A stretch of 64,000 nt of DNA from NCBI RefSeq assembly GCF_021129235.1, contig NZ_JAJOMA010000009.1, positions 1 to 64,000 of the forward strand, given 5' to 3'. This document shows positions 7,272 to 37,239 of the stretch, in pieces. A model generated the notes under the pieces. That model was not told the origin of the DNA, did not search any database, and saw only the letters and a list, made by a program, of their open reading frames with translations. Numbering within the stretch: the first letter of the stretch is position 1; each line of letters begins with the position of its first letter. Made by a program: the position numbers and the translations under genes. Source of the DNA: Kineosporia mesophila (GTDB taxonomy: Bacteria > Actinomycetota > Actinomycetes > Actinomycetales > Kineosporiaceae).

Positions 7272-7290
7272 GGATCCGACAGCCGACCCT

Positions 7291-10864: not shown

Positions 10865-14783
<3,919 letters not shown>

Positions 14784-14787
<4 letters not shown>

Positions 14788-17023: not shown

Positions 17024-17376
17024 GACTGCGGCTGCCAGGTGTAGAAGCGTTGCGCGGCCGCATCGGCCGGTGAACGCCAGGTCGGCAGATACGGCTGGAT
17101 GAACGGTCGCAACCGATCACTGATGTCGGTGAATCCCGGCAGCCCGACCCCGGCCCGCATCGCCTCCTCGGCGCTGCGATCGAAGTCGATGATATGGACG
17201 TACAGGTCGCCCAGACTGTGAAGGGATCGCTGGCGCACCCCCAGGGCGTACGGCAGGTCGGTGCGGTCGGAGTCTCGGAAGATGCCCGCCACGGCTTCTT
17301 CGGAACCCGGCTTGATCCGGGCCACGATCACCTGGCGGCACACCGTCGACGGGTCGGAGCTGTTCGGACTGGACAT
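17020..17376 (-). CDS. TcmI-family polyketide cyclase
   Basis: The 118-residue protein fits the small TcmI/WhiE-VII cyclase family: RQVIVARIKPGSEEAVAGIF at the N-terminus, a central HSLGDLYVHIIDFDRS and the closing pattern FIQPYLPTWRSPADAA followed by FYTW. These ferredoxin-like-fold dimers close a late ring. The ATG at 17376 was chosen because the family begins about there; a TTG at 17412 is in frame. It heads the overlapping biosynthetic chain after a 118-nt gap, so a promoter probably lies at 17377-17494. Confidence 0.88.
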   Translation of the reverse strand: MSSPNSSDPSTVCRQVIVARIKPGSEEAVAGIFRDSDRTDLPYALGVRQRSLHSLGDLYVHIIDFDRSAEEAMRAGVGLPGFTDISDRLRPFIQPYLPTWRSPADAAAQRFYTWQPQS

Positions 17377-17438
17377 GAGAACTAGCGTTGTCCGCCAGTT
17401 TTGGATCGTCAACCACTTCAGGGCCGACGCGGGCCGAT

Positions 17439-20411: not shown

Positions 20412-22838
20412 TCAGATGCTCAGCTCCGAGGCCACTGCGCACGAACCGGGCACGCGGACGAGCTCATATCGTCTTAGCCAGTCGTCAAAGTCCGCAGCGG
20501 GCAAGGGCCGGCTGTGGAGATAACCTTGTGTCTCGTCACAGGACAGATGCGCCAGCGCGGCCAGCGTAGGCTCGTCCTCGACCCCCTCCGCCACCACTCG
20601 CAGATGCAGGTCGTGCGCCAGGGCGATGGTATTGGCCACAATGGCAGCAGCCCGTGGGTCAACCAGCAGGTCCGCGGTGAACGAGCGGTCCAGCTTCAGC
20701 TCGCTGACCGGTAGTTGCCGCAGTTGCGTCAACGACGAGTACCCGGTCCCGAAGTCATCGATACTGACCTGGATCCCCAGAACCATGAGCGCCTTCACCA
20801 CGGACACACTGCGCTCGGGCTCGCGCAGAAGCGCCGTCTCGGTGATTTCCAGCACCAGCGAGGTCGCCGGCACCTGATACTCGTCCAGAAGCGCCTCAAC
20901 GGTCTTCGGCAAAGACCGGTCCAGCAGTGTTCCCGCCGAAAGATTAACGGAGACACGAATATCGCGGCCGACAGACCGCCACCGGGATTGCTGGGCGACG
21001 GCCTGGGTCAGTACCTCCCGCGTGATGGCGTCCATCAGTCCGTGGGACTCCGCAAGGGGCAGAAATTGCCCCGGCATGAGCAGCCCGAGCCGAGGGTGCT
21101 GCCATCGGACCAGAGCTTCGGCTCCCGCCAGCAGACCGTTTCGGGTCTCTCCGGTGACCACGCCGGATGGCGTTGTGCGGTCGTCCTGGAAACCGGTGTG
21201 CAACTGAGGTTGATAGTGGACCTTCAGCTCGCCGGTGGTGATGGCCCGTCGAAGTTCACCCACCATGGCCAGGAGTCCCCGGGGATCGCTATGACGTTCG
21301 GGCTCGTAGGCGACCACGAGCAGGTCGTTCCGCTTGGCGTCGTACATGGCGGTGTCGGCCTGACGCAGGAGGGTCGCGGCGTCCATCGTCGCTTCCCCTC
21401 GCCGCGCGGTCACGATCTCCTCGGGCGGTGACCATGACGTCACCCCGACGCTCAGATCGACATGCACGCTCATACCGGCCAGCTGGAACGGCTCCGCAAA
21501 TGTCTCGGACAAGAGGGACAGAGCCCTTTCCCCGTCGGCGCCGGTCGGCGACACGATCGCGAATTCGTCGCCGCCCAATCGTCCCAGCAGGGCGGACACA
21601 GGCAGCCGTGACTGCACCCGCTGATTGACCATGCGCAGGAGATCGTCGCCGACGCTGTGTCCCAGACCGTCGTTGACCTCCTTGAAGTGGTCCAGGTCGA
21701 AGACCGCCAGCTGAGTGGCGCGGTTCTGGGCCACGCGTGATTCCAGGCGGCGAAGGAGCGCGCGACGGTTGGACCCTCCGGTCAGATCGTCCGTCAGAGC
21801 CTCCGCCCGGCTGGCCGCGAGCTGGACGAGCTCGCGCAGGTTGATCAGCAGGCGAATGCTGGACCCCATGACGGCGGCGACCGCGCACAAGGCCACCAGG
21901 GCGGGAACCCCGGTCAGAAGGGCTGCCACCAGCACGGCCATCCCCGCGCTGACCACCACGAAGGCACCGACGGTGGACTTGACCGGATCAGATGCCTGGG
22001 TGGGTACGAACCGGACCGGTTTCAGGGCGGCGGTGGCCAGCAACAGCAGTCCGAAACACCAGACGCACAGTGTCCATCCCGGGAGCGAGCCGTCGGCGAA
22101 CAAACCGAAGACGCCACTGGCACCGGCCATCAGGTAGGCGCCCGTCACCAGCCAGATGCGCAGATCCAGGTACAGCCGACTGACGGATGCTGCGGTCAAC
22201 GCGGCCGTGACAACGACGATCCACACAGCGCTCTGCGCAGCCAGCAGTTGTTCGCGCCAGGTCACGGTGGCCAGCAACAGCCCTTCCCCGTTGTCGGGAG
22301 CGTTCCAGGCCAGGCAGCATCCGATGAGTGCGGTCACCACCAGCACCGAGCTGATGCCGTTCAGCAGATCGTCCGGGTCCACGCCGGCACTGTGGCGGCT
22401 CCAGCGGACGACGGCGCAGTACGTCAGCGGAAAAGTCACCAGTGTGCCCAGAGCGGCCGGCAGCTCGGAAAGCCCGGAGGTGCCGGGAAAGAGCGACAGC
22501 ACCTCCGTCGCCAGTCCGCTGAGTCCGAAGACGGCGCAGGCCGCGCTGAACATCCGCCACACGCGCTGCTCGGCCAGGGACCGCCGGGCGCGCCAGGTGA
22601 CGATCCACCAGGTGGCCCCGAGCGCGGTGGCGGCCGAGAGGATCCGGGCATCGCGCCAGATGCCCTCGTGACCGATGACGCCGCCACCCAAGCTCATCAG
22701 CTGGAGGACCGTCTGCCCGATCAGGGCGATGACCAGGGCGAGAACGGCCGTTCCAGCCGGGTGCGACACGGCCGACCAGAACCTGTTCGCGGAACCGGAC
22801 AATCGGGCAGTCCTCACAGGGTAGACAGCTGAGACCAC
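20412..22838 (-). CDS. Membrane GGDEF-EAL protein (c-di-GMP turnover)
   Basis: The 808-residue protein has about eight to ten membrane segments in the first 330 residues, then GGDEF and EAL domains. The synthase motif is intact (RLGGDEFAIV, about residue 425) and lacks an RxxD inhibitory site five residues before it. The phosphodiesterase domain keeps AEALVRWQHP (about 572), VSIDDFGTGYSSL and VVAEGVED. Both activities are plausible. It lies upstream of the PKS regulators with its own terminator and diverges from the diguanylate cyclase at 23139. Confidence 0.92.
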   Translation of the reverse strand: MVSAVYPVRTARLSGSANRFWSAVSHPAGTAVLALVIALIGQTVLQLMSLGGGVIGHEGIWRDARILSAATALGATWWIVTWRARRSLAEQRVWRMFSAACAVFGLSGLATEVLSLFPGTSGLSELPAALGTLVTFPLTYCAVVRWSRHSAGVDPDDLLNGISSVLVVTALIGCCLAWNAPDNGEGLLLATVTWREQLLAAQSAVWIVVVTAALTAASVSRLYLDLRIWLVTGAYLMAGASGVFGLFADGSLPGWTLCVWCFGLLLLATAALKPVRFVPTQASDPVKSTVGAFVVVSAGMAVLVAALLTGVPALVALCAVAAVMGSSIRLLINLRELVQLAASRAEALTDDLTGGSNRRALLRRLESRVAQNRATQLAVFDLDHFKEVNDGLGHSVGDDLLRMVNQRVQSRLPVSALLGRLGGDEFAIVSPTGADGERALSLLSETFAEPFQLAGMSVHVDLSVGVTSWSPPEEIVTARRGEATMDAATLLRQADTAMYDAKRNDLLVVAYEPERHSDPRGLLAMVGELRRAITTGELKVHYQPQLHTGFQDDRTTPSGVVTGETRNGLLAGAEALVRWQHPRLGLLMPGQFLPLAESHGLMDAITREVLTQAVAQQSRWRSVGRDIRVSVNLSAGTLLDRSLPKTVEALLDEYQVPATSLVLEITETALLREPERSVSVVKALMVLGIQVSIDDFGTGYSSLTQLRQLPVSELKLDRSFTADLLVDPRAAAIVANTIALAHDLHLRVVAEGVEDEPTLAALAHLSCDETQGYLHSRPLPAADFDDWLRRYELVRVPGSCAVASELSI

Positions 22839-23138
22839 CGGTTCCTCTCGGCACGGCGTTCGTCGTCATCCAGTGATTCTGCGAAAGTCGCCCAGGTCGA
22901 TCAGCGCTCGCCCGCCGCCCGGCTCGAGATTCTGCCCGCGACCGGAACCGGCATCGCATGCCCTCCCGGGCCCCGTCCCCGATCTGCTGCGGGTGGGGTC
23001 CTAATGGCCGGACGCCGGCTGACGGTCATCGCCTGCACGGGTGATGTCCGCGGAACCGGCTCAGGTCGCCGGCATCCCGACCGAGAGGGCCGGGACTGCT
23101 TCCGTCCGGGAGCGGACCCGATCGGGAAGGGCTCCTTC

Positions 23139-24332
23139 GTGCTTGATGGCCGGTGGCCGGTGATCCTGCGCTCCGGAGCAACGGTAGCGACGCAACTGCT
23201 GCTGGTCGCCGCCGTCTGGGCGTGGCTCGCGATGCTCGAGCTTCCCCGGGGTTCTCTGTCCTGGCTGCTGCTCTCCTGGGGCCTGTGTTTCGCGCTCTAC
23301 ACCTGGCCTTTGCAGCCTCTGCTGGAGCGTGTCAGTGACTCGGTGCCCGGCCTGAGTGCTCGTGTCGTTCTGTGCCTGGCCGCGATCTGGTGGGCGGTCG
23401 CCACGACCGGCCTCACGATGCTCTTCCCTGTGGTCATGGCCTTCAGCGTTTCGGAGATCCTGAGTCGGCATCCCGCGTTGCCCACGGCGATGGTGGGTAT
23501 GACGGCTGTCGTCACCGGCACCCTCCTGATGCAGATGGCCATGCACGGTGGTCTGGTCACCAGCCTGGCTCCGGCCGCGGTGGCCGATGAACTGGCGGCC
23601 ATCCTGGCCGGCATCGGTTGCGTCCTGCTGGCCCGCACCATGACGACCAGCCGGCGGCACCAGATCCTCCAGGCCCAGCTCGATGAGCAACAGCGACGGC
23701 AGCACGAGGAACTTCACTACGCCGCCACGCATGATCAGCTCACCGGGCTTCTCAGCCGGCGGGGGGCCGTCGAGGCATTGAACGCAAGAGGCCGTTCGCC
23801 GCAGTTTGCCTCAGCACTTTTGTTCATGGATCTGGACGGGTTCAAGAAGGTCAACGACACCTATGGCCACGACGCCGGTGATCAGCTGCTCCGCACGGTG
23901 GCCGACAGAATCCGGCAGACCGTGCCCCCCGGAAACATCACCGCCCGGATGGGCGGCGACGAATTCATCGTCATCCTTCACGATGCTGATCCGCCGGCCG
24001 TGGAGAGGGCGATCCGGGAGATCCGCACGACCATCGACCGTCCCGTCCAGGTCGTTCTTCCTCCGGCAGACCCGGGAAAGCCACCCACCGCACCGGTTCG
24101 CACCCACGTCCGGGTGGGCCTGAGTATCGGTGCCTCGCCGATCACCTCGACCAGCGATACGGAACAGGCACTGCGGGCAGCGGACGAGGCCATGTATCGC
24201 GACAAGAACAGCCGCTCCGATCATCGGGCGAACCGGGGAGTACCGCCGGAGATCTGGAGGATGCCCATCCAGCCCGGTCCCGGCTCTCAGCAGAACGCCC
24301 CCTCGATCGCCGGCCCCGGGTTCAGCACTTAG
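23139..24332 (+). CDS. Membrane diguanylate cyclase (GGDEF)
   Basis: The 397-residue protein has about five to six membrane segments (residues 5-165), a short coiled-coil linker (QAQLDEQQRRQHEE) and a GGDEF domain. Its motifs are HDQLTGLLSRRG, FMDLDGFKKVNDTYGHDAGD and MGGDEF at about 271. No RxxD inhibitory site is present. The start at GTG 23139 follows GGGAAGG; ATG 23004 is in frame but lacks a ribosome-binding site and membrane-like sequence. Its stop overlaps the convergent MFS gene stop by 3 nt. Confidence 0.88.
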   Translation: MLDGRWPVILRSGATVATQLLLVAAVWAWLAMLELPRGSLSWLLLSWGLCFALYTWPLQPLLERVSDSVPGLSARVVLCLAAIWWAVATTGLTMLFPVVMAFSVSEILSRHPALPTAMVGMTAVVTGTLLMQMAMHGGLVTSLAPAAVADELAAILAGIGCVLLARTMTTSRRHQILQAQLDEQQRRQHEELHYAATHDQLTGLLSRRGAVEALNARGRSPQFASALLFMDLDGFKKVNDTYGHDAGDQLLRTVADRIRQTVPPGNITARMGGDEFIVILHDADPPAVERAIREIRTTIDRPVQVVLPPADPGKPPTAPVRTHVRVGLSIGASPITSTSDTEQALRAADEAMYRDKNSRSDHRANRGVPPEIWRMPIQPGPGSQQNAPSIAGPGFST

Positions 24333-26107
24333 CCGATCGTCTGCCCGCCCTCGGAGTGGTTCGCCGCTTGTGAATCAGGGGCCACTCGGGGTTGCGGTAC
24401 ATCGATGGCTCCAGCCGACGGTTCCGCGCCGTGGACGAGAACCCATCGCCAGCAGTCGTCGTCCTCCCGACGCAGAACGCCGCTGAGCTGATAGGGGAAG
24501 GTCTCCGCCGCACCCGGTCCCGGGTGATCAGGATGCACGGTCCCGGTCCCTGTCACCAGAATCCAGGCCGTGTCGCCCTGCGAACTCGAGACGATCGTCC
24601 GCTGCCAGGTGAAGACGTATCGTTCCGGGCGTCCCAGCACCTTCGCCAGGAGCGCCGCAACGTCATCCTGACCGGTGGCGTGTTCGTCGATCTCGGAGCC
24701 GGCATAGGTGATGTCCGGGGCACAGTAGCTCAGGAAGGCATCGGCATCGCGATCCGCGAAGCTCGTGGTCAGCGCGTCCAGGGCCGGCTGGATGCTCGCC
24801 TCCACCATCGGGTGCTCTTCCTCCGTCGAGACATAGGCAGCCGCCGGGAATCCGTCGGGCAGCCGCATCTGCGGCAGGAACAGAGAGCCGAGTGTGATGG
24901 CGCCTCCCAGAAGACCGGCTCCCGCGAGGGTGTTACGGGTGCCGAGCAAGCTGGCCACCGGTGCCGTGATCGCGTAGGACAGCGGCAGGAAGGCAATGGA
25001 GATGCACCAGTCGAGACTGGAGACACGACCCATCAGGGCGTCGGGAACCAGGCGCTGCTTGGTGGTGGCCCAGGCGATCGTGCCGGCTGCCTCGAACCCG
25101 TTGATGAGAAGACTGGCCAGGGCCAATTGCCAACTGTGGGTGGCAAACCCGTACCCGGCGACCGCTACGGTCGCCGTCGTCCAGCAGAGGTACATGAAGG
25201 TGAACTGCCGCTGGGGCAGGCCGGTCTGGGCCATCAGCAAGGCCGCTCCGACCGCTCCGATGCCCCCGGCGGCCAGCACGACGCCCAGAATCCGGGCCGA
25301 GCCGCCGAAGTCGGTTCGGACCAGGTAGGGAAGCAAGACCTCGGTGGGCCCGATGAAGAGCAGATAGGTCACCCCGGCCGAGAGAAAAGTTCCCCACAAC
25401 CACATCCGGGAGCGGATGAAGGTCAGCCCTTCCCTGGCCTCGGCCAGAAGACCGGCGCCCGTGTCGTCCTGATCCATCGGCCTCGGCCGGATCATGAGCA
25501 CGCAGGCAGCCGACAGGGCGAAGCTGGTCGCATCCACCAGGAAGGCTCCTCCCGCGCCGATCGCCGCGACCAGGGCGCCACCCAGCGCAGGCCCCAACAG
25601 TCGCAGCATCATCGGGCGCAGGAGCTGATCCAGGGCGTTGGCGTGCTCCAGGTCGCTCTCGTGCACCAGACTCGGCAGGAGGGCGTCGAAGGCGGGGGCG
25701 GCGAAACCCGCTCCCGCACCGTACACAACGCTCAGCAGGGCCATGTGCCACAGATGTAGATGCCCGGTCAGCGCCGTCACCGCGACCGTCGAGATCGCCG
25801 CGCAGCGCACCACATCGGCGGCGATCAGAATGCGACGCCGGTCGTACCGATCGCTGATCACTCCGCCGAAGACCACACACACCAGCTGAGGGGTGGTCGC
25901 GCAGACCCCCAGCAGGGCCAGACCGCCGGCCCCGTGCCCCAGGGTGAGGGCTTGCCAGGCCATGGCGACCAGGTAGACGCCGTCCCCGAGCAGACTGGTC
26001 GAGGCGCCGATCCAGAGCAGACGGAAATCTCTTTGCCGCAATGGTTTCAGAAGAGGAAACCGCGATGATGGCGTGATGCCCGGCCGTACTTCACCCGCTT
26101 CATTCAT
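24329..26107 (-). CDS. MFS transporter fused to an NTF2/SnoaL-like domain
   Basis: The 592-residue protein is an MFS exporter of the enterobactin-exporter-like type for about 420 residues: FRLLWIGASTSLLGDGVYLV, then the loop GVISDRYDRRRILIAADVVR. A soluble domain of about 130 residues follows, starting near VEASIQPALDALTTSFADRD and containing YVFTWQRTIVSSSQGDTAWI. That part matches NTF2/SnoaL-like folds. Such C-terminal domains are unusual on MFS pumps. The ATG overlaps the alpha-oxoamine synthase stop by 8 nt, so it probably exports or modifies that enzyme's product. Confidence 0.85.
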   Translation of the reverse strand: MNEAGEVRPGITPSSRFPLLKPLRQRDFRLLWIGASTSLLGDGVYLVAMAWQALTLGHGAGGLALLGVCATTPQLVCVVFGGVISDRYDRRRILIAADVVRCAAISTVAVTALTGHLHLWHMALLSVVYGAGAGFAAPAFDALLPSLVHESDLEHANALDQLLRPMMLRLLGPALGGALVAAIGAGGAFLVDATSFALSAACVLMIRPRPMDQDDTGAGLLAEAREGLTFIRSRMWLWGTFLSAGVTYLLFIGPTEVLLPYLVRTDFGGSARILGVVLAAGGIGAVGAALLMAQTGLPQRQFTFMYLCWTTATVAVAGYGFATHSWQLALASLLINGFEAAGTIAWATTKQRLVPDALMGRVSSLDWCISIAFLPLSYAITAPVASLLGTRNTLAGAGLLGGAITLGSLFLPQMRLPDGFPAAAYVSTEEEHPMVEASIQPALDALTTSFADRDADAFLSYCAPDITYAGSEIDEHATGQDDVAALLAKVLGRPERYVFTWQRTIVSSSQGDTAWILVTGTGTVHPDHPGPGAAETFPYQLSGVLRREDDDCWRWVLVHGAEPSAGAIDVPQPRVAPDSQAANHSEGGQTIG

Positions 26108-27344
26108 CGCGCCGGCGCAACAGTTCAGCATCCGCGAGGCCGTCCAGCACCGCACAGAGTTCGTCGATCTCGTCGTCCTGATTGGCCGCGGTGATCTGGA
26201 CCCGGAAGCCCACCTGGTCGCGGGGAACCAAGGGGTAGGCCGCCAGGGTCACGTAGATCCCCTTACGGAATAGGATGGCGCCGACTTCTTCGATCGACAT
26301 TCCTGTGGCCAGCGGAAGTTCAATGATGGGTAGACCAGAAGTATTGGGAGTGTAAACGTTTCGATGTTCAAGCAGGTTGAGTACGCGACGGGTCTTGTCG
26401 TGCAGGTCAGCCCGTAACCGATCACCACGCACCTCATTGACATCGAACCCGGCCATCACCGTGGCCAAGGACGCGGTCGGGGACGGGCCGGAGTACAGGT
26501 ACGGCGCAGCAGCCAGCTTGAGATGGTCCTTGAGTGCGGTCGGCAACGCGATGAACGCCAGCAGCGACGAATACGCCTTGGAGAAGCCCCCCACCAGAAT
26601 GATGTCGTCGTAGGACTGCGCGGTATGGCGGACGATACTGTTGCCTCGCTGACCGTAGGGACTGCTCTCCTGGTCGCTGCGCTCCCCGATGACGCCAAAA
26701 CCATGGGCGTCATCGACATACAGCCGGGCGCCGTGCTCACGCGCCAGCGCTACGTATTCACCCAGTTCCGGAATGTTCCCGGTCATGCTGTTGACGCCGT
26801 CCATACAGATCAGCCTGGTCTCGTGAGCCGGGGCCCGGCGCAGAAGATCGGCCAGTTCCGTCAGGTCGTGGAAACGCTGAACCGACGCCCCGAGACCCCG
26901 GGACATGACGCATCCGTCGTAAATGGTCTTGTGCGCTGTGCTTTCCATGAAGATCTGACCGTCACCGGCCAGGGCCGGCAGGACCGACAGGTGAATCTGC
27001 GTGATGGTGGGTAGCACCAGGGTGTCGGGAGCGCCGAGGAGATCGCTGAGTCGCTCCTCGATGTCCAGGTAGATCCGGGGGCTGCCGAGCAGGCGCGACC
27101 AGCTGGGATGCGTTCCCCAGCGGGATACTTCGGGGGCGATCCGATCAGCGATCTCGGGATCGAGGTCCAGGCCCAGATAATTGCACGAGGCGAAGTCGGC
27201 GAGCCACTGATCGCCGATCCGGATCCGTCGCCCCCTCACCTCGTCGATGGTGGCGTCGCACATCTCGGATACTGCCCGCAGATGCGCCAATCCGCTGAGC
27301 TGGGGCTTCGTGGCGACCGGTACGAGCGTAGCCAACGGCTTCAT
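26100..27344 (-). CDS. PLP-dependent alpha-oxoamine synthase (AONS/CqsA-like)
   Basis: The 414-residue fold-type I enzyme condenses an acyl thioester with an amino acid, releasing CO2. The Schiff-base Lys is Lys256 (LVGGFSKAYSS); DDAHGFG (211-217) holds the cofactor Asp and His. His137 in STAHKTIYDG corresponds to the ring-stacking His. No biotin gene is near, so biotin synthesis is unlikely. It starts by ATGA overlap from a PAS-GGDEF-EAL gene and ends overlapping an MFS exporter, an arrangement suggesting a small diffusible aminoketone. Serine palmitoyltransferase-like or glycine C-acetyltransferase activity are alternatives. Confidence 0.86.
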   Translation of the reverse strand: MKPLATLVPVATKPQLSGLAHLRAVSEMCDATIDEVRGRRIRIGDQWLADFASCNYLGLDLDPEIADRIAPEVSRWGTHPSWSRLLGSPRIYLDIEERLSDLLGAPDTLVLPTITQIHLSVLPALAGDGQIFMESTAHKTIYDGCVMSRGLGASVQRFHDLTELADLLRRAPAHETRLICMDGVNSMTGNIPELGEYVALAREHGARLYVDDAHGFGVIGERSDQESSPYGQRGNSIVRHTAQSYDDIILVGGFSKAYSSLLAFIALPTALKDHLKLAAAPYLYSGPSPTASLATVMAGFDVNEVRGDRLRADLHDKTRRVLNLLEHRNVYTPNTSGLPIIELPLATGMSIEEVGAILFRKGIYVTLAAYPLVPRDQVGFRVQITAANQDDEIDELCAVLDGLADAELLRRRDE

Positions 27345-30300
27345 ACCAGATCTTTCGGAATCTGGACCCCCGGAGTTGAGCCGTCCTCCCAGGCGTCTCT
27401 TCCTTCGCCGGCAACTTTCCCCGTTTTCCGGACGCCTCCGTCGAAGGTCGGCGACGCGGGCGACCCACTCTGCCGCGGAAGATCCGACAGGGCGGAGGAG
27501 AAGGGAAGGGTTCCGTCCGGAGAGCTCGCCAGCAGAGCGGCCAGCCGGCTCGGTGGCAAGGGGGGCGAGAACAAGTAGCCCTGACCCAGCCGGCAGCCCA
27601 GTCGCTGCAACTCCGCTCTCTGCGACATGGTCTCGATCCCCTCCGCCACCACGGCGACGCCGAGGTGCTGGGCCAGGGCCACGACCGTCCGGGCCGGAGT
27701 TCCGTCGTTGGCCCGGTCGCTGGAGAGCCCCATGACGAATGATCTGTCGATCTTGAGCAGGTCGACAGGAAGACGGGGCAGGTACCCCAGGGAGCTGTAC
27801 CCGGTACCGAAGTCGTCGAGCGCTATGGTGACGCCCAGTTCACGGACGACCCGCAAGCTGTTCACCACTGCGGTGTCCTCGCCCAGGAGCACGCCCTCGG
27901 TGATCTCCAGAACGAGACGATCCGCAGGAACATCATTCTGCGAGAGCGAATCCTGAACCAGAGCGGCGAAACCTGGTTCCTCGATCTGCCGCCCGGACAC
28001 ATTCACGTTCATCCGCAGCGCGTTCCCCGGGAATTGCTCGGCCCAGAGACCCATCTGACGGCAGGCGGTATCCAGCACCCAGGCCCCGATCGGCACGATG
28101 AGCCCGTTCTCCTCAGCCAGGGCAATGAACTCCTGAGGGAGGACGAGGCCGTTGGTCGGGTGGTTCCATCGGATCAGAGCCTCCACCCCTACCAGCTGAC
28201 CGGTTTCCAGCGTCACGATCGGTTGATAGACCAGGATGAACTCATCGAGCTCCAGCGCCTGCTGCAGAGCGGTGCGCATACCCGCGCGCTGCATCATCTG
28301 CGTGTGCAGATCGGGACGGAACTCGACCACACAGTTCTTGCCGTGTTCCTTGCCCGCGTACAGCGCCAGATCGGCGCGGCGCAGGAGCTCGACCGAGTCC
28401 AGTGCCTCCTCCTGATCGGGAGAGCTGACGGCTGTCCCGATGCATGCTCCGACCTGAGTCAGGTCCCCCCTCACGAGCAGGGGCCTGGTCAAGGCGCTCA
28501 GCAACCGATCCGCGGTGTCCCGGACCTCTTGCGGATCGTCGGTCTCGATCAGGATCGCGAACTCGTCACCGCCCAGGCGGGCAGCCGTCCCCTCGAGCCG
28601 AAGCGCCGCAGTGATCTCAGCGGCGACACACACGAGCAGGTCGTCCCCGACCGCGTGACCCCGGGTGTCGTTGACCAGTTTGAAGTCGTCCAGATCGATC
28701 AGCAACGCTGCGACGACCAACCCGGTGGCGGACTGCCGATCCAGAGCCTGCTTGACGCGTTCCCGGAAGAGCGCCCGGTTCGCCAGACCGGTGAGAGGGT
28801 CGTGGAACGCCTGATGAATGAGCTCCTGCTCCAGGTTTCGGCGTTCGGTGACATCCCGCAGAGTCAGGACGATCCCCTCCACCGTGGCGTCGTTCAGCAG
28901 ATTGCTGAAGAGAGCCTCGTACGCGTGGTAAGTGCCGTCGAGATGGACCAGACGCCAGTCCGCCGCAGCCCGATCGGTCTCCAGGTCGGTGGAGACGGCG
29001 GCCAGAACGTCGGAGAATCCGGGCCGGTCGAGCGGATGCAGAAAATCGTGGATCGGCCGGCCGGTCACTTCGGCGGACGGCAGTCCCAGGATCCGCTCCG
29101 CCGAAGGGCTGACGTACCGCAGGAGGCCGTTCGCGTCGGTGATGAGGATGACGTCGGAGGCGTTCTGCACCAAGGTCCGAAAGTGCGTGTCGCTGCGCTG
29201 CCGCTGCAAGTCATCAGCCAGGCGAGCGCTCTCGACCGCCACCGCCGCCTGGGCCGCGATGGCCTTCAGGGCGTCGGCTGTCTCGTCCGGAACAGATCGG
29301 GAGGTCAGGCTCAGAACCGCATCCGGGCCGGCATTGAACAACGCGCTGAACCGGACCCAGCCCTCACCGCGTTCCACCTGGACCGGTCCGGAGAAAAGCA
29401 CCGGCCGGCGGCCGATCCGGGAGGAGGCCATGGTGATGTCTCCATAGGCTGCCACCTCGCTCAGTTCGCCCGCCTCACAAAGATGCAGTTCGGCCCGGGC
29501 GGGCGAGGAGGGGGGCCGTAACCGCCTCGCCGAGCGGACAATGGCCAGGTACAGCTGCTCATGATCGGTGGCTCCACCGATATCCATGGCCGCCGCGCGA
29601 AGCGCCCGTTCCCGCGCGATCGACTGGCGGTGGACCGCCAGGACACTTTCCAGCCGGAGGAGGACGAGCAGGAACATGACGACGGAAAAGCCCGCTGCCG
29701 TACCGGCGTCCCGGACGGCACCACGGGCTGCCTCGATCATGAGCACCAGGGGGGACAGCAGACTCGCCAGGGCCAGGAGCACGAGACGCCGGCGGGGTAG
29801 ATCGGCACTCGGTGCCGGCGTGACCTCGCCGATCCCGGTCATGGACGGATGCAGCGCGGCGGCTCCCCAGCTGATGTAGAAGACGATCCACCCGATGTCG
29901 ACCGGACCATTCGTCGCCCAGGACCCGTGCAACTGGATGAGCCCGTAGAAGACGTCGGCTGTCAGGAGCCCGATCGCCCCGAGGGACAGCAGTTGCACGG
30001 CGACGACCCGCATACCTCCGTTGCCGACCAGCCGGATCAGGATGACCAGGACGAGGACGTCGCCCAGGGGGTAGGCGACCGAGACCATCTTCTGCACCAG
30101 GCTGAGGCTCTCGTCATGGACGTACGGCTCGATCAGATAGGCCCAGGAGAGAAAGCCCACGCCGGTGGTGATGATGAGGGCGTCCAGCAGACCGTCGCGA
30201 TCGCGCCAGGCGGCCCGACTCTGCACCAGGATCAGACCGGCGGCGAAGAGAGGATAGGTCAGGAGGTAGAACGCGTCCGAGATGGACGGATAGGGGTTTT

Positions 30301-30580
30301 CCCGGCCCAGGACGTCGACGTACACGTTGTACAGCGTGTCGCCGGTGATGAACGCCAGGAGAGCCAGCGACAGGATGACCCAGGCCCATCGGCGGGTCGG
30401 ACGATTCAGCCACACCCCGGCCAGTACGGCCAGTGAGGCCAGAAAACCGAGCGGGCTCCACAGAGCGAGGTGATGCCCGGGAAACACGTAATAGGCCGAA
30501 GCCAGAGCCATGGAGCACAGCACATAAACCCAGGAAGCAATCCGGCCCACACCTGGTGGATCGGCCGCACGACGAAACAA
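27341..30580 (-). CDS. Membrane GAF-PAS-GGDEF-EAL protein
   Basis: The 1,079-residue protein has about nine membrane segments (1-310), a GAF-like domain (about 325-460) and a PAS domain (THFRTLVQNASDVILITDAN). GGDEF (RLGGDEFAIL, about 670) and EAL (VEALIRWNHP, about 798; ALDDFGTGYSSL; VVAEGIET) follow. A disordered C-terminal tail of about 60 residues is Ser/Gly/Asp rich. Both catalytic motifs look intact; no RxxD I-site. Its stop is coupled to the alpha-oxoamine synthase start. That places c-di-GMP turnover in one operon with the synthase and its exporter. Confidence 0.92.
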   Translation of the reverse strand: MFRRAADPPGVGRIASWVYVLCSMALASAYYVFPGHHLALWSPLGFLASLAVLAGVWLNRPTRRWAWVILSLALLAFITGDTLYNVYVDVLGRENPYPSISDAFYLLTYPLFAAGLILVQSRAAWRDRDGLLDALIITTGVGFLSWAYLIEPYVHDESLSLVQKMVSVAYPLGDVLVLVILIRLVGNGGMRVVAVQLLSLGAIGLLTADVFYGLIQLHGSWATNGPVDIGWIVFYISWGAAALHPSMTGIGEVTPAPSADLPRRRLVLLALASLLSPLVLMIEAARGAVRDAGTAAGFSVVMFLLVLLRLESVLAVHRQSIARERALRAAAMDIGGATDHEQLYLAIVRSARRLRPPSSPARAELHLCEAGELSEVAAYGDITMASSRIGRRPVLFSGPVQVERGEGWVRFSALFNAGPDAVLSLTSRSVPDETADALKAIAAQAAVAVESARLADDLQRQRSDTHFRTLVQNASDVILITDANGLLRYVSPSAERILGLPSAEVTGRPIHDFLHPLDRPGFSDVLAAVSTDLETDRAAADWRLVHLDGTYHAYEALFSNLLNDATVEGIVLTLRDVTERRNLEQELIHQAFHDPLTGLANRALFRERVKQALDRQSATGLVVAALLIDLDDFKLVNDTRGHAVGDDLLVCVAAEITAALRLEGTAARLGGDEFAILIETDDPQEVRDTADRLLSALTRPLLVRGDLTQVGACIGTAVSSPDQEEALDSVELLRRADLALYAGKEHGKNCVVEFRPDLHTQMMQRAGMRTALQQALELDEFILVYQPIVTLETGQLVGVEALIRWNHPTNGLVLPQEFIALAEENGLIVPIGAWVLDTACRQMGLWAEQFPGNALRMNVNVSGRQIEEPGFAALVQDSLSQNDVPADRLVLEITEGVLLGEDTAVVNSLRVVRELGVTIALDDFGTGYSSLGYLPRLPVDLLKIDRSFVMGLSSDRANDGTPARTVVALAQHLGVAVVAEGIETMSQRAELQRLGCRLGQGYLFSPPLPPSRLAALLASSPDGTLPFSSALSDLPRQSGSPASPTFDGGVRKTGKVAGEGRDAWEDGSTPGVQIPKDLV

Positions 30581-30786
30581 CTGAACCCACTCCGGTCGCC
30601 ATGAATCCGGAAGACCACCAGCGCACCCGAGCGATCGGCCGGGACGACGCCCCCGTTCCTGCTGCCGGGTGAACCTGGAAGAAAGGCGAACTCCACTCTC
30701 TCCGGGACACAGCGGGATGACGACATCTCTCCACGAAGCATGCGCACGGTGGCATGTGCACGGCGAGTCTGAGGAGAGGGTGGCAC

Positions 30787-32742
30787 ATGCGCCAGGGACT
30801 GTGGCGAAGTGCGCTGTTCGCCCTGCTGTTTGCCGCAGCGCTGGGTTTCGGGCGTCTGCCGGCCGTCGGGCCGGGAACGAGCCTGAGCGTGGCGTGCCCG
30901 GCGGCCGGCGTGGCGGTGGTGTGGTTCGCGGTTCAGCGCGATGCCGGGACCTGGTGGTGGGACATCGTCCTGCTCGGCGTCATCAGTTCTGGTCTCCACC
31001 TCGCCACCGAATCATCCATCGGTCTGGCCGGCTCCCTCGCTGTGGGCGACGTCGTTCAGCTCCTTCTGTTCACCGTCATGTTCAGGAGATGGTGTCCGCA
31101 CGCCTGGGGCGCCGGCGGGGAACAGGCACTGATCGGCATGCGACAGCTCTTCCGGCTGACGGGCGCCGCTGTGGTCGCTTCTGCCGGCAGTGCGCTGATC
31201 GTCCTGCGCGCCATCGGGGCCGTGACCACGATCCCGACCTGGCAGGCCGCACTGATCTGGATACTCAGTAACAGCATCGCCATCGTGCTGATTGCGGCAG
31301 CCGGCTTCCGGGTGGGCTGTCTGCTCTCCGCGGCTCAGCGCCGACGGAAGGGCCGCAAGGCCGAGGCACCGGATCTGATCGAGGTACCTTTCCACCGCCC
31401 CGGCGGCCGGGGCGCCGCCGAGCTCGTGATGCTCCTGATCAGTACCAGCGTGATCTACGAACTGGTCTTCTACGGCACGTCACTCCCGATCGCGTTTCTC
31501 ACGCAGGCGCTCACCGTCTGGATGGCTCTGCGTTTCGACACCGTCATCGTGGTGATACACAACCTGCTGACCGGCACTTTCGCGGTGTTCCTGACTCTGG
31601 CCGGCCACGGGCCCTTCGCAACCCTGCCCACCACTGCCTCCCGGGCGCTGGTGGTGCTGACCTTCACGGGGCTGGTCGCCGTGGTGGGACTGGCTCTGGC
31701 CATGAGCAGGGACGAGCGAGATGTCTTGCTCAGCCGGGTTCAGGACCAGGCCGACCTGGCCCAGGCGCATGCTCAGCACATGGAGACTCTCGCCCGCGCC
31801 TCGCGAGCGCTGGCCGGTGCGGAAGACGCGCGAGAGGCAATCTGCCGGGCCGCCCGTGAGATCTCCGGGGCCGACGGCGCGTACCTGCTGGAACCGCAGG
31901 ACGGTGACATGCTGGTCAGCACCGCCACCGGTGGCATGCCTCTGCCTCCGGTACGTCTTCACATGAGTGCCGAGGGGTCCCAGGCCGCCGTCGTCCTGCG
32001 AGAGGGACGAATGGTCTTCGCAGCCAACCTGGAATCGTCCACACAGGCGACTCCGCGGATCAGGGCCGAAGTGAACGCGCGCTCCGCTCTCTGGCAGCCG
32101 GTGTTCCGGGCCGGTAAGCCGGTGGCGGTGATCTGCCTGTTCTTCAAGAAGAGCATCTCCACCTACCCGCCTCACGTGCCACCGATGCTGGAGACCCTGG
32201 CCGCGGAAGCCGCCAGTGCCATTGAACGCGCTGACTTCCTGGACCGCCTCGCAAGGGCCGCGGAACGGGACAGCCTCACCAACGTGGCGAACCGCCGCCG
32301 CTGGGACCAGGCCCTGGCCACAGAGATCGCCCGGGCTCAGCGCACCGGCAAACCGCTGACGGTGGCGCTGCTCGACCTGGATCATTTCAAGAGGTACAAC
32401 GACCGGCACGGTCATCTGGCGGGCGACGACCTGCTGCGCGAATTCGCCCGAGCGGCCGAGGAATGCCTGCGCGAGATCGACACTCTGGCCCGCTGGGGTG
32501 GGGAGGAGTTCGCCGTGGCACTCCCGTCCTGTACCGCCCACGAGGCGCTGGTGGTGGCCGAGCGGATTCGAGCTGTCGTGCCGAATGGTCAGACGTGCAC
32601 GGTCGGTCTCGCCGAATGGACCGCCGGCCTGAGCGCCGAGGAAACGATGCGACGGGCGGACGAAGTTCTCTACCAGGGAAAGCAGGCGGGCCGGGACAAG
32701 ACGATCATCCATCCGGCCCGGACGCCCGTGGAGTCCTGCTGA
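30787..32742 (+). CDS. MASE1-like/GAF diguanylate cyclase (GGEEF)
   Basis: The 651-residue protein has about eight membrane segments (1-320, MASE1-like), a coiled stretch, a GAF domain (about 340-480) and a GGDEF domain with GGEEF at about 571. An inhibitory I-site is present (REID, five residues before GGEEF), so product feedback is expected. ATG 30787 follows GGAGAGGG; an earlier in-frame start at 30754 is less likely. It diverges from the gene at 30580 across about 200 nt. Confidence 0.9.
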   Translation: MRQGLWRSALFALLFAAALGFGRLPAVGPGTSLSVACPAAGVAVVWFAVQRDAGTWWWDIVLLGVISSGLHLATESSIGLAGSLAVGDVVQLLLFTVMFRRWCPHAWGAGGEQALIGMRQLFRLTGAAVVASAGSALIVLRAIGAVTTIPTWQAALIWILSNSIAIVLIAAAGFRVGCLLSAAQRRRKGRKAEAPDLIEVPFHRPGGRGAAELVMLLISTSVIYELVFYGTSLPIAFLTQALTVWMALRFDTVIVVIHNLLTGTFAVFLTLAGHGPFATLPTTASRALVVLTFTGLVAVVGLALAMSRDERDVLLSRVQDQADLAQAHAQHMETLARASRALAGAEDAREAICRAAREISGADGAYLLEPQDGDMLVSTATGGMPLPPVRLHMSAEGSQAAVVLREGRMVFAANLESSTQATPRIRAEVNARSALWQPVFRAGKPVAVICLFFKKSISTYPPHVPPMLETLAAEAASAIERADFLDRLARAAERDSLTNVANRRRWDQALATEIARAQRTGKPLTVALLDLDHFKRYNDRHGHLAGDDLLREFARAAEECLREIDTLARWGGEEFAVALPSCTAHEALVVAERIRAVVPNGQTCTVGLAEWTAGLSAEETMRRADEVLYQGKQAGRDKTIIHPARTPVESC

Positions 32743-32817: not shown

Positions 32818-33426
32818 TCAGAGGCCTGTTCCAAGCGGTAGCGTCTGGGTGGCATGAGCCAGCACCCGTGGATCATGCGTAGAAATGATCACCAGTGTGC
32901 CCTGCGCGAGCACCGACAGAACGGCCTCGATCACCCGCTGCGTGTTGTCGTCGTCCTGATGGGCCGTCGGCTCGTCCAGAACCATCAGTGACGGGCCGAG
33001 CAGGAGCGCGCGGGCCACCGCCACGCGCTGCTGCTCACCGACTGAACCCTGACCCACCGGGCGGCTCGCCAGCACATCCACGCCCAGCCGCTCGAGCAGG
33101 GTCGCCACGGTGTCCGGGCTGACGGTGCGTCCGGCGGCCAGGACCGGCATCACCAGGTTCTCCGCCGCGGTGAGTTCTGGCAACAGGGCCAGACGCTGAG
33201 GCACCACGGCGATCCGCGACCAGTCGGTGATTTCGTCGGTCGGCGTGCCGTCGAGCGTCACCGCGCCCTGCTCCGGGCGCTCGAACCCGGCGATCAGGTG
33301 GCAGAGTGTGGACTTCCCCGAGCCGGAGTGGCCGGTCAGGGCGACCAGCGCATGGGGCCCCGCGCTCAGATTGACATCTTTCAGCACACCATGGCTGACC
33401 GCCGAGACGTTCAGCGATGCGTTCAT
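32818..33426 (-). CDS. ABC transporter ATPase, short (MacB/LolD type)
   Basis: The 202-residue ATPase has Walker A GHSGSGKST, a degenerate signature (QGSVGEQQRVAVARAL rather than LSGGQ), Walker B LMVLDEPTAHQD and the switch His in ISTHDPRVL. It is shorter than the usual 220-240 residues. It is the last gene of a three-gene unit with another ATPase and an FtsX-type permease (ATGA overlap). Two unequal ATPases suggest a heterodimer. Confidence 0.88.
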   Translation of the reverse strand: MNASLNVSAVSHGVLKDVNLSAGPHALVALTGHSGSGKSTLCHLIAGFERPEQGAVTLDGTPTDEITDWSRIAVVPQRLALLPELTAAENLVMPVLAAGRTVSPDTVATLLERLGVDVLASRPVGQGSVGEQQRVAVARALLLGPSLMVLDEPTAHQDDDNTQRVIEAVLSVLAQGTLVIISTHDPRVLAHATQTLPLGTGL

Positions 33427-34283
33427 GAGCTGCTCTCCGGTGCCTCGAGGACGACCTTGCCGTCGATCAGCTCCATCCGGGCCCGGCGGCCGGGGAAGAG
33501 GTTCAATGCCTCCGGCGACAATTGCAGGCGCCCGGCGGAGTCGATCACCGCTTCGGTCCGGCGGGTCTCGGGCAGTTCGCTGCCGGACCGCTCGGCCGAG
33601 AGCACGCCGTGGCGCAGGTGCAGCACGCGCGGCACGCGACGCAGCGCTCGTGGGTCGTGGCTGGACAGGACACAGGTGCTGCCTGCGGCCGCCACCGTGG
33701 CCAGCGCCGCGAGCACCCGCTCGGCGTTGTCGTCGTCCAGTTCGGCGGTGGGCTCGTCGGCGACCACCAGAGCCGGGGCGTGGGTCAGGGCCGCGGCGAC
33801 GGCCAGGCGCTGCTGTTCGCCACCGGAGAGCCGTCCCGGCGTGGCGTCAGCCCGGTGGGTGAGGCCCAGCAGCTCCAGGGTCTGGGTAGGTTCGAGTCCA
33901 TCGGTACGACCACGGATGCACGCGGCCTGCAGCAGGTTCTCGATCACGGTCAGGTGCGGGAAGAGGCCGTGGGCCGGTCGCTGCGGTACCCAGGCGATAC
34001 TGTTGCGGCGCAGGGATTTCAGAACCGATTGCGGGGCCTGGGTAACGTCGGCGCCCAACAGCGTGACGGTGCCGGCACTGGCCCGGTCGCGCAGCGCCAG
34101 GATCGAGAGCAGCGTGCTCTTGCCGCCGCCCGAGGGGCCGGCGATGACGGTGATGCCGCCCGACGGGAAGTCGACGTCGACCCCGCGCAGGGCGTGCACC
34201 TCACCGGAGACCGCGCGGTAGATCCGCACGAGATTACTCAGCCCGGCGGTCCGACCGGTGACATTGGTCGTCTCACCGGTCAT
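33423..34283 (-). CDS. ABC transporter ATPase with AbrB-like C-terminal tail
   Basis: The 286-residue protein has Walker A GPSGGGKST, signature RLSGGEQQRLAVAAAL, Walker B LVVADEPTAELDDD and LSSHDPRAL. After the ATPase domain, residues about 243-280 read DSAGRLQLSPEALNLFPG, then ARMELIDGKVVLEAP. This resembles a SpoVT/AbrB-type swapped-hairpin module, which could dimerise or bind DNA. It overlaps the permease by 11 nt and the second ATPase by 4 nt. Confidence 0.88.
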   Translation of the reverse strand: MTGETTNVTGRTAGLSNLVRIYRAVSGEVHALRGVDVDFPSGGITVIAGPSGGGKSTLLSILALRDRASAGTVTLLGADVTQAPQSVLKSLRRNSIAWVPQRPAHGLFPHLTVIENLLQAACIRGRTDGLEPTQTLELLGLTHRADATPGRLSGGEQQRLAVAAALTHAPALVVADEPTAELDDDNAERVLAALATVAAAGSTCVLSSHDPRALRRVPRVLHLRHGVLSAERSGSELPETRRTEAVIDSAGRLQLSPEALNLFPGRRARMELIDGKVVLEAPESSS

Positions 34284-37086
34284 CGCGAAGAACCTCCGAG
34301 GGCACCAGCGCAGCCGATCTGCGCGCCGCGGCCCAGACCGCCACCACGGTGACTCCCGCGGCGGCCAGTGCGCTGAGGGCCAGTGGCAGAAGCGGTATCT
34401 GAAAGCCTAGAGCCGGTGCGAGGGCGGGTCCCGGCTCGACCAGGCGGGGAAGCAGAAGCATGAGCAGGGCCAAGGGCGGGACCAGCGCGATGAGCGCAGC
34501 CAGGCTGGTCAGCGCGAGCTCGATGGCCCGGAGCCGGATCAGGTGGGCCGGGCGGATACCGAACCGGAACAGGACGAGGTCGACCGGGGCGGCACGGGCG
34601 ACACGCCGGTCGACGGCGACCACGACCGACAGTCCGGCCAGGGCCAGAGCGGCCAGCCCGAGGACGACCTGGTAAGTGGCCGCCCATCTGCTGGAGGTGA
34701 GAACCGGTGTGGCCTGGGCCTGCTGGATGGAGGTGATGGTTGCCGGGGTGATGTCCTTCCGGTCGAGGTAGGCCGCCAGGGCGGTGGCGGTTCGGGTCGA
34801 CCAGAGCCAGGTGGTGTACGTCCCCTGCGAACCGGGATTCACTGCCAATGAGGGGTTCTGAACGTTGCCGAGGGCGTCGAGAGCGTCAAGATGGGCGAAC
34901 AGCGACCGGGCGTCGAAGACGACCGTCGGGCCGGTGGCGCCAGGAAAGGCGGTCAGGTCGGCTCGCGCGATGAGGGGAATCTCCTGGGACCCGATCGAGA
35001 CGGTCCCGCCGAGTCCGGTCTCGCGGCCGGGTATCCCGATCAGGAGGGCCGGCAGGACGCCCCGGGCGGGTGCGCCGAGGGTCTGCAGCGCCTGGCGCGC
35101 CTCGGCCAGATCCGGTCCGCGCCCCCAGAGTGCCACCGCCGGGAAAGTCTCGGGATTGATCACCAGAATGTCCACGTCGTGGTGGTCGGGCTGCAACTGG
35201 GCACGGGTCTTCCACAGCACCGACAGGTCCTGCCCCAGAGCGGGATGGGGGCCTGAACCCGCGCCCAGGCCGGAGGAGGTGGGGATGTGGGCCGTGCTGA
35301 CCGCTCCGGCCAGGACGGCGGTCTTGTCCTGCACCGATGCGCGCACCATGCTGGTGGAGACCAGCCCGTAGGCCAGCACACCCACCCCGATGGACAGAAC
35401 CACCACCAGATCGGTGACCGCCAGTCCGGTGTCGCGCAACCCGCGCAGGATCAGCCGGTCGATGCTAGATCCTGGAGTCGTGGTGGAGCGGCGGCGCACG
35501 CGCGCGGCGACGGCAGCGGCCAGGCGGACCGTCAGCAGGCTACCGCTGGACAGAACGAGAACGGGCAGGACCGCAGCGAGCGGGTCGGTGTAGGAGGCCC
35601 GGTCGTCGCGGGTCAGCACCGAGGCGATGGCCAGGCCGGTGGCACCCAGCAGGAGAGGTAGCCAGGGCCCGCCGGATCCGGCCCGACCCCGGGAGGATTC
35701 GTGCCCGGCGAGCCGTCGTCCGATTGCATGGGTCTGCAGCAGGGTGACAACGGCGTTGCCGGCCAGCGTGACGAGGGCGACCAGTCCTACTGCATACAGA
35801 GCAGCGACGATCGCGTCCGGGCCCAGCCGGCTCTGCGGGCCGAAGCCCACGAAGGCGAAGTAGACCGCAGTGAAGCCGGTGACGGCACCGGCGAACACCG
35901 GCAGCAGCAGTTCGGCAACGCCGGCCAGGATGATCGCGGGCAGCGGCGCGCCCACGCCGACCAGCAGCTCGTTCTCACGGCGGCGGCGCTGGGACAGGGC
36001 GCGCAGCGCCATGATCACCGCGGCCAGCCCGAGGGCAGCGCCGGCCAGGGCGATACCTCGGCCCTGCTGGGCCGCCGCGCGGGCATCGGCCTGAGCCTCG
36101 TCGTGCAGCGACGTGAGTCCGGTCTCGACGCGGGGCACCACCCCCTGGCCGGCCGCGACCACCCGCAGCGCACTGGTCGGGTCGCTTGCGTCCAGCCGGA
36201 ACTTCTGGGCGGCCGTCGCCGCCTGACCGAGTCGCCCCAGTGACCGCCCTTCCTGGGTGAGCTCGGCCGAGAAACTCCACTGGGGTTTCTCGTCGGCCCC
36301 CTTCAGAGCGGCAAGGACGGTTTCCTGGTCACCGATCATGAGCAGGGGCGGCGTCGGGCACCCGGCCGGGTCGCTGGGCAATCGCGCGGCGATGGATGAG
36401 AAGTACGAGCCGGCGGGCAATCGCCCGTCCGCCACGGTGCGGTAGGTACCGGCCAGGGTGACGGTGGACTGGCTGGTGGTTCGGGTGCCACGCCCCTGAG
36501 AGTCGGCGGCGACCGGGGCCACCGGCCCACTACAACCCAGGATGTCCAGCCCGTCGCTGAATGTCTTACCGACCTGGAACTCGTCCCCGGGATCCAGCCC
36601 GAGACCATGGGCCTCTCCATCAGGCAGCCACAGTCCTCGGGCACCGCGTTCGCCCCGCACCACGTCGAGCGCCTGCACCGCACCCGTGCGGTGATAGAGC
36701 ACCGCCACCCGGTGCTGGTCACCGACGCCGAGAAAGGGCACCGGCTTACCCAGCTCGAGCTGCCAGGAAGCCGCCCACACCTCGGTGACCACCGGGCCCA
36801 GCCAGGGCACTCCGTCCAGCATACGGACCACCTCGGCCCGGGTCTCGTCCCAGATGGGACCCGGCAGCACGAATCCCAGCGCGGCCTGCTGATTGAGCTG
36901 GGAACCGGCCGGGACCGTCGCGAGCTTGCGCTCCAGCGAACCGTTCGCGGTCGCCCGGGCGAACAGCGGGCCGGCCGCGACCAGCCCCGCCAGCAGAGCA
37001 ACGCTGATCGTGAGCATGAGCGCCGGCGCACCGGAGTGCAGCATGCGTCCCGGTGCGCGGCGCAGCAAGGGCCAGCTGTGGTACAT
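34273..37086 (-). CDS. FtsX-like ABC permease
   Basis: The 937-residue membrane protein has one N-terminal segment (ALMLTISVALLAGLVAAGPL), a large extracytoplasmic domain (about 45-370) and a four-helix FtsX block. After a second extracytoplasmic domain a closing block follows (LLPLALSALAAAGVTVVAVW). This is the duplicated FtsX form typical of actinobacterial MacB-like exporters. The start at 37086 has GGGGAGGG. A less GC-rich stretch near 37150-37190 may hold the promoter. Substrate unknown; peptide or lipophilic antibiotic export is a family guess. Confidence 0.88.
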   Translation of the reverse strand: MYHSWPLLRRAPGRMLHSGAPALMLTISVALLAGLVAAGPLFARATANGSLERKLATVPAGSQLNQQAALGFVLPGPIWDETRAEVVRMLDGVPWLGPVVTEVWAASWQLELGKPVPFLGVGDQHRVAVLYHRTGAVQALDVVRGERGARGLWLPDGEAHGLGLDPGDEFQVGKTFSDGLDILGCSGPVAPVAADSQGRGTRTTSQSTVTLAGTYRTVADGRLPAGSYFSSIAARLPSDPAGCPTPPLLMIGDQETVLAALKGADEKPQWSFSAELTQEGRSLGRLGQAATAAQKFRLDASDPTSALRVVAAGQGVVPRVETGLTSLHDEAQADARAAAQQGRGIALAGAALGLAAVIMALRALSQRRRRENELLVGVGAPLPAIILAGVAELLLPVFAGAVTGFTAVYFAFVGFGPQSRLGPDAIVAALYAVGLVALVTLAGNAVVTLLQTHAIGRRLAGHESSRGRAGSGGPWLPLLLGATGLAIASVLTRDDRASYTDPLAAVLPVLVLSSGSLLTVRLAAAVAARVRRRSTTTPGSSIDRLILRGLRDTGLAVTDLVVVLSIGVGVLAYGLVSTSMVRASVQDKTAVLAGAVSTAHIPTSSGLGAGSGPHPALGQDLSVLWKTRAQLQPDHHDVDILVINPETFPAVALWGRGPDLAEARQALQTLGAPARGVLPALLIGIPGRETGLGGTVSIGSQEIPLIARADLTAFPGATGPTVVFDARSLFAHLDALDALGNVQNPSLAVNPGSQGTYTTWLWSTRTATALAAYLDRKDITPATITSIQQAQATPVLTSSRWAATYQVVLGLAALALAGLSVVVAVDRRVARAAPVDLVLFRFGIRPAHLIRLRAIELALTSLAALIALVPPLALLMLLLPRLVEPGPALAPALGFQIPLLPLALSALAAAGVTVVAVWAAARRSAALVPSEVLRDDR

Positions 37087-37239
37087 CGGCCCTCCCCGGG
37101 CGCCGCCTGTCCGTGAAATCTGGGCCAGCGTAGGGCGCCGGGACCGGCAACTGGGTGCTATGTCGTAATTGTTATGATCTGGCATTGCCGTTCCAGCCTT
37201 GGTAATAGAACTTGCCGTCAGCACCCGGCCTAGCCCCCG

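Follow-up and report, generated by a model that had tools for sequence, protein, structure and literature searches.

Three genes with overlapping ends lie head to tail on the minus strand, at 30580..24329, in a stretch of 64,000 nucleotides from Kineosporia mesophila (positions 1 to 64,000 of contig NZ_JAJOMA010000009.1, assembly GCF_021129235.1), which as a whole is called the window below. They encode a membrane PAS-GGDEF-EAL protein, an alpha-oxoamine synthase (AOS) and a major facilitator superfamily (MFS) protein with a SnoaL-like domain. An earlier annotation made from the sequence alone (the original prediction) had placed three genes here with a 4-nt ATGA overlap and an 8-nt overlap, and open reading frames (ORFs), Pfam matches and the sequence itself bear this out. 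Our comparison with other genomes reveals that the synthase keeps company with the N-terminal membrane domain of its partner, and the two may represent a synthase and its receptor. The features of the locus are:

27341..30580, minus strand: 10TM-type membrane domain-PAS-GGDEF-EAL protein, 1079 aa as listed, with a TTG start (ORF; Pfam)
29594..30526, minus strand: 10TM-type sensor domain, without Pfam family, common to AOS-linked histidine kinases elsewhere
28850..29185, minus strand: PAS domain, residues 466-577 (Pfam)
28334..28810, minus strand: GGDEF domain, 133 bits (Pfam)
27560..28273, minus strand: EAL domain, residues 770-1007, 238 bits (Pfam)
27341..27344, minus strand: ATGA stop/start overlap of 4 nt between sensor gene and AOS gene (read in the sequence)
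26100..27344, minus strand: AOS, 414 aa, with pyridoxal phosphate (PLP) lysine K256 (Pfam Aminotran_1_2)
26100..26107, minus strand: 8-nt overlap ATGAATGA between AOS and MFS genes (read in the sequence)
24329..26107, minus strand: putative MFS_3 exporter fused to a C-terminal SnoaL-like domain (Pfam MFS_3/MFS_1, SnoaL_3)
24431..24787, minus strand: SnoaL-like domain of the MFS gene (Pfam SnoaL_3)

The length of the sensor gene rests on the listed TTG start, and the true start may differ; the MFS ORF was scanned as 24329-26155, and the start of the gene was placed at 26107.

The N-terminus of the sensor protein is a conserved membrane domain that bears no Pfam name and was absent from the description in the original prediction. 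We refer to it as 10TM-type (TM, transmembrane), a label borrowed from the published architecture of the Streptomyces protein CdgF; the number of helices may differ here. Of 40 members, 11 match HlyIII-type Pfam models weakly (E 0.0014 at best), the window's own domain not being among them. Both the GGDEF and the EAL motifs are kept in the window protein (motif search), and with both domains and their motifs it qualifies, judged by sequence, as a GGDEF-EAL enzyme of cyclic di-GMP (c-di-GMP) turnover. The genome of this strain yields 77 GGDEF matches; a GGDEF neighbour alone therefore means little here, and it is the comparison across genomes that carries the case.

Distribution and identity of the synthase

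Among 57 sampled relatives, five of them from the same genus, there were distant AOS matches at most (best 114 bits, 23-35% identity). A wider search found 394 relatives of the AOS, and the best 80 of these, at 60-68% identity, form our first set of loci (numbered with the prefix L). Their sources are Streptomyces, Actinoplanes/Paractinoplanes, Dactylosporangium, Catellatospora, Micromonospora and others, including metagenome-assembled genomes labelled Acidimicrobiia, Euzebyaceae, Dermatophilaceae and more. Together with the window, a second set of 24 further loci brings the number to 105, which amounts to 102 distinct genes given the duplicate records L101/L169, L106/L168 and L108/L170. In an even sample of the phylum (396 genomes, that of the strain included), the AOS occurs at E 1e-60 or better in 26; these genome searches scored the first four AOS or five 10TM candidates per genome, and the copy numbers are therefore minimum values.

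The window AOS matches eleven NCBIfam models, each below its cut-off. Scores were 176.4 bits against 426.45 for BioF (TIGR00858), 134 against 460 and 107.6 against 493 for Kbl (NF005394 and TIGR01822), 154.9 against 500 and 150.1 against 640 for serine palmitoyltransferase (SPT; NF047599 and NF047600), and 98 against 339 for aminolevulinate synthase (ALAS). A maximum-likelihood tree with 83 rows, among them 42 of the 105 AOS sequences, places all of these 42 on one side of a branch with 100/99 support and the BioF, Kbl, SPT and ALAS rows on the opposite side (midpoint root for drawing only; SPT is represented by two rows and by aligned stretches). The phylogeny proposed in the original prediction thus places the synthase outside BioF and Kbl, and SPT and ALAS can be dismissed as well. 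The same prediction had likened the enzyme to CqsA, an identity that we reject by model score only (61.8 bits, where NF005526 asks for 428).

The tree rows closest to the AOS group are PLP enzymes of rhizobia from the PRK07505 family (support 100/98, flagged as long branches meeting), yet the window AOS misses the cut-off of that model too (NF005697, 128 bits against 342). Three PRK07505 neighbourhoods contain response regulator genes in two cases and an annotated GGDEF-EAL gene in none. In the rhizobial loci L249 and L251 the response regulator genes lie close by, on plasmids.

In E. coli BioF numbering, all of 99 AOS rows have His133, Asp204, His207 and Arg361, and 97 of the 99 have the PLP lysine K236; these rows cover the 105 loci except L190, L186, L185, L184, L039 and L099. 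A motif W-G-x-H-P-x-W-S-R is typical of the group. PLP lysine, stacking His, DDAH and substrate Arg assign the AOS to the alpha-oxoamine synthase superfamily, and on paper it is a complete enzyme. Fold and catalytic residues are thus common to it and to BioF, Kbl, SPT and ALAS, whereas the side of the tree and the model scores differ.

A clue to the substrate comes from L188 and L189, in which the AOS forms the C-terminal part of a larger protein composed of a fatty acyl-AMP ligase (FAAL), an acyl carrier protein (ACP) and the synthase (Pfam AMP-binding, PP-binding, Aminotran_1_2; FAAL models match L188). This FAAL-ACP-AOS protein adjoins a 10TM-GGDEF-EAL gene in L188 and a 10TM-kinase gene in L189. 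Such fusions in relatives suggest that the acyl donor is likely a fatty acyl thioester. They would also suit a structural lipid route, by which the AOS would supply a sphingoid-like base or another aminoketone lipid to the envelope and the 10TM protein would serve as membrane scaffold or as a sensor of membrane state; serine palmitoyltransferases are, moreover, among the best PDB matches to the AOS. However, the AOS stands apart from both SPT rows in the tree, its scores reach only 155 of 500 and 150 of 640 bits of the SPT cut-offs, and no ceramide-type gene was recognised among 29 scanned ORFs of the window and 15 neighbour proteins inspected by eye (one of them scanned), and we regard this route as improbable. 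The earlier statement that biotin and sphingolipid genes are missing nearby agrees with our scan, in which none was recognised among the same 29 ORFs between 489 and 46831, a part of the window's ORFs; acetyl-CoA carboxylase subunits of a polyketide synthase-like cluster (see below) are among those scanned.

Linkage of the synthase to the 10TM-type domain

The 10TM domain adjoins the AOS in 76 of the 80 loci of the first set (at 300 bits or more) and in 23 of the 24 loci of the second, in which L190 is the exception and L183 and L184 contain only part of the domain. Two of the four first-set exceptions (L038, L039) are cut by a contig start or a run of N, and the GGDEF-EAL end is still visible in them. 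The arrangement is accordingly not peculiar to this strain, the point at which the original prediction could have failed. Across all 105 loci, the nearest 10TM gene precedes the AOS gene in 41, shares its reading frame in 36 (35 of the first set and L187), follows it in 18, lies on the opposite strand in seven and is missing in three. In the even sample, 26 of 26 AOS-positive genomes possess the 10TM domain (E 1e-10) compared to 66 of 370 AOS-negative ones (Fisher p 1.5e-18, relatedness not corrected), and the domain is therefore not exclusive to AOS loci. When 20 genomes with a strong 10TM match and no AOS were probed with the FAAL-type AOS, two distant matches appeared (35% and 32%).

A tree of 85 10TM domains (quick search; 28 of the first 80 loci, the window, L167-L189 and 30 further loci that lack an AOS) shows the AOS-linked domains clustered, with seven label changes against a mean of 24.9 after shuffling (0 of 500 shuffles as low), and the window's domain falls in a group of 25, every one AOS-linked. 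Pairwise distances of AOS and 10TM domains are correlated (Spearman 0.83, 0 of 500 permutations), although common descent alone can give the same result; 92 of the 105 loci entered this comparison, ten having been dropped as truncated, duplicated or divergent and three for want of a 10TM match. Recurring linkage, fusion (see below) and clustering in the 10TM tree rule out a chance neighbourhood. Five loci without AOS in the fetched stretch (L205, L206, L208, L222 and L223) bear the 10TM domain in frames of 1,381-1,865 codons from stop to stop, and these may possibly represent orphan receptors with other outputs.

The output domain is less constant. In seven loci of the second set a 10TM domain adjoining the AOS bears a histidine kinase, recognised by Pfam in L168, L174, L182, L185 and L189 and by motif and similarity in L175 and L176. 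The kinases are of different types: PAS-bearing (L174 by Pfam, L175 and L176 by similarity), HisKA_3 (L182, L185), a kinase with receiver domain and a LuxR-type regulator alongside (L168, the same record as L106), and a hybrid kinase with Hpt (L189). No GGDEF-EAL gene was seen near the AOS within 12 kb in L168 and 15 kb in L189. In the tree, the kinase-bearing 10TM domains of L174-L176 sit among GGDEF-EAL-bearing ones. Taken together with the clustering and the distance correlation, the kinase variants mark AOS and 10TM domain as the steadier pair, of which the output can change.

The remaining genes of the locus vary. Among the 104 other loci an MFS relative (above 200 bits) occurs in 32 and a SAM methyltransferase (above 55 bits) in 40, never together. 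Exporter and methyltransferase are thus exchangeable accessories, and export, which the original prediction had counted among the functions of the module, has no place in its core. In Actinoplanes the MFS and SnoaL parts are separate ORFs, which overlap for example in L029. One might see in AOS, MFS protein and methyltransferase a natural-product gene set, the product of which would act on other organisms while the sensor would be an ordinary regulator. The window MFS protein is related to drug exporters (248 bits to the Tet(V) model, cut-off 640), the methyltransferase approaches the SCO2525 family (120.8 of the 240 bits required), and an aromatic type II polyketide synthase (PKS)-like cluster lies 7 kb from the module (5115-17412, minus strand), with two ketosynthases, two cyclases, acetyl-CoA carboxylase subunits, an FAD/ABM monooxygenase and an MMPL protein. 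Nevertheless, AOS and sensor persist where the accessory genes differ or are absent, and relatives of the ketosynthase-alpha and acetyl-CoA carboxylase genes occur in 0 of 80 loci (up to 7 kb on each side), which removes the PKS-like cluster from the module and makes a natural-product set very improbable. The methyltransferase is also weakly similar, below cut-off, to amine N-methyltransferases.

Around the module the window contains four more GGDEF or GGDEF-EAL genes: 20412-22838 (minus), 23004-24332 (plus), 30754-32742 (plus) and 39707-42181 (minus). At 32818-37290 (minus) two ABC ATPases lie beside an ORF of 1005 aa, for which neither Pfam nor NCBIfam gave a match at E 0.001.

Fused proteins of Streptomycetaceae and CdgF

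In the first set, GGDEF-EAL and AOS are encoded by a single ORF in 36 of 36 loci from Streptomycetaceae (35 Streptomyces and one Actinacidiphila) and in 0 of 44 others, with the family taken from record titles. The fused ORFs span 1,432-1,735 aa, apart from L080 (1,081 aa), in which the 10TM part is in another frame. Pfam recognises PAS, GGDEF, EAL and Aminotran_1_2 in the one fused protein scanned (L033).

Streptomyces venezuelae has five GGDEF-EAL proteins, CdgA, CdgC, CdgF, RmdA and RmdB. The paper on them gives CdgF the architecture 10TM-PAS-PAC-GGDEF-EAL, finds the key residues present in GGDEF and EAL alike, and locates the protein in the membrane fraction (PMC6205966). As late as 2026 its function was said to be in need of definition (PMC13232838), and the nine enzymes in the published list for S. 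ghanaensis do not include CdgF (PMC7911125). Each of four Streptomyces genomes that we examined has five EAL matches, of which one is the fusion. In S. zaomyceticus (genome G058, the source of L036) the fusion alone among the five EAL proteins combines a strong 10TM match, GGDEF and an intact EAL. Of the other four, one has several TM segments, a second, 20 kb away from it, matches the 10TM domain weakly and lacks an intact EAL, and two are without TM segments; we matched the first two to RmdB and CdgC, and the two without TM to CdgA and RmdA. By this elimination in a related species, the fused Streptomyces loci probably represent the CdgF family. However, the published CdgF ends at EAL, whereas the fused ORFs continue into the AOS, and the main text of PMC6205966 nowhere refers to an aminotransferase, oxononanoate or pyridoxal domain.

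The order sensor-GGDEF-EAL-AOS in the fused proteins leads to the main rival of the reading that we favour: The AOS would be the output, the 10TM and PAS domains would sense something else, and c-di-GMP turnover or the conformation of the protein itself would switch the AOS, so that a lipid-like metabolite would arise in response to the proper signal. The membrane placement suits a lipid-acting enzyme, and the 66 AOS-negative genomes with a 10TM domain are consistent with this. On the other hand, the AOS stays with the 10TM domain where a histidine kinase alone is seen (L168, L189), and AOS and 10TM domain lie on opposite strands in seven of 105 loci, two of them with another N-terminus. The domain order thus favours the AOS as output and the kinase variants, two of them clean, disfavour it; on balance we consider it rather unlikely, though to be taken seriously.

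A candidate synthase-receptor module and its known counterparts

We tentatively favour, at somewhat less than an even chance, the reading that the locus encodes a synthase and its cognate membrane receptor, similar in its working to CqsA/CqsS and mostly with c-di-GMP as output. In the AOS reaction, an amino acid and a fatty acyl thioester would condense to a long-chain alpha-aminoketone, which might be exported by the MFS protein in the window organism or methylated in Streptomyces. The 10TM-type domain of the partner protein would bind the compound, and the ligand-bound sensor would shift the balance of GGDEF and EAL, and with it c-di-GMP; in certain other lineages a domain of this type would control a histidine kinase. 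Of the original prediction, the link between an alpha-oxoamine synthase and c-di-GMP has gained from the conserved linkage, the gene fusion and the common tree pattern, while its CqsA-type enzyme finds no support and its exporter is optional.

Several observations weigh against a synthase-receptor module. The 10TM domain is more widespread than the AOS, and the genome of the strain holds at least four further copies. L190 has neither a 10TM nor a GGDEF-EAL neighbour, and in L073 and L089 the GGDEF-EAL neighbour lies 1.3-2.7 kb off on the opposite strand and has a different N-terminus. Among the kinase variants, L174-L176 also possess a 10TM-GGDEF-EAL gene, and L182 and L185 are at contig ends, so that a clean replacement is confined to L168 and L189. 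In the tree, the 10TM domains of L188 and L189 group with unlinked ones and those of L182 and L185 sit beside one, and the AOS of L188 and L189, the source of the substrate clue, is only about 40% identical to that of the window. Neither an MFS nor a methyltransferase gene was found in 19 of 80 first-set loci in the up to 7 kb on each side. Among AOS-linked proteins with the EAL loop motif, 81 of 89 have both GGDEF and E-x-L motifs (pattern search). In the fusions the AOS is C-terminal to GGDEF-EAL, the usual position of an output, and two fused Streptomyces proteins (L037, L094) have glutamine in place of the PLP lysine; these may be sensors in which the synthase domain persists in an inactive form. 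Finally, no developmental phenotype was seen in S. venezuelae after deletion of cdgF, under the conditions used in that study (PMC6205966).

Applied to Streptomyces, the synthase-receptor reading would make of CdgF a single polypeptide, the C-terminus of which makes an aminoketone signal, while its own 10TM domain senses it and c-di-GMP records the result. To our knowledge, no earlier family of cell-cell signalling in Gram-positive bacteria would be based on an AOS; we regard this extension as doubtful. The signals perceived by PAS/GAF-type Streptomyces c-di-GMP enzymes, CdgF included, are stated as unknown (PMC6205966). The fused synthase names a candidate ligand family for such an enzyme, which can be tested in the model strain with the existing cdgF deletion. 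A literature search that left most subscription journals and supplements outside brought up no published account of the fusion or of the pairing, and the passages available from PMC7911125, PMC10333796, PMC13118837 and PMC6828939 do not describe it. The literature searched likewise yielded no AOS-based signalling in actinobacteria. If the favoured reading is true, actinobacteria would gain a synthase-receptor class, in which the receptor domain swaps c-di-GMP and two-component outputs while keeping its synthase.

CqsS is a six-TM receptor. A synthase encoded together with its cognate receptor is usual in quorum sensing, and the AOS-based examples are CqsA/CqsS and LqsA/LqsS (PMC3376566). The loci described here resemble these two systems in that a PLP synthase of the AOS fold is encoded beside a multi-TM membrane sensor, albeit one of another kind, in the probable fatty acyl substrate and, in some loci, in a histidine kinase output. 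In contrast to them, the AOS remains far under the CqsA cut-off, the receptor would be of the 10TM type, the usual output is GGDEF-EAL, and in Streptomyces the synthase and the putative receptor are fused.

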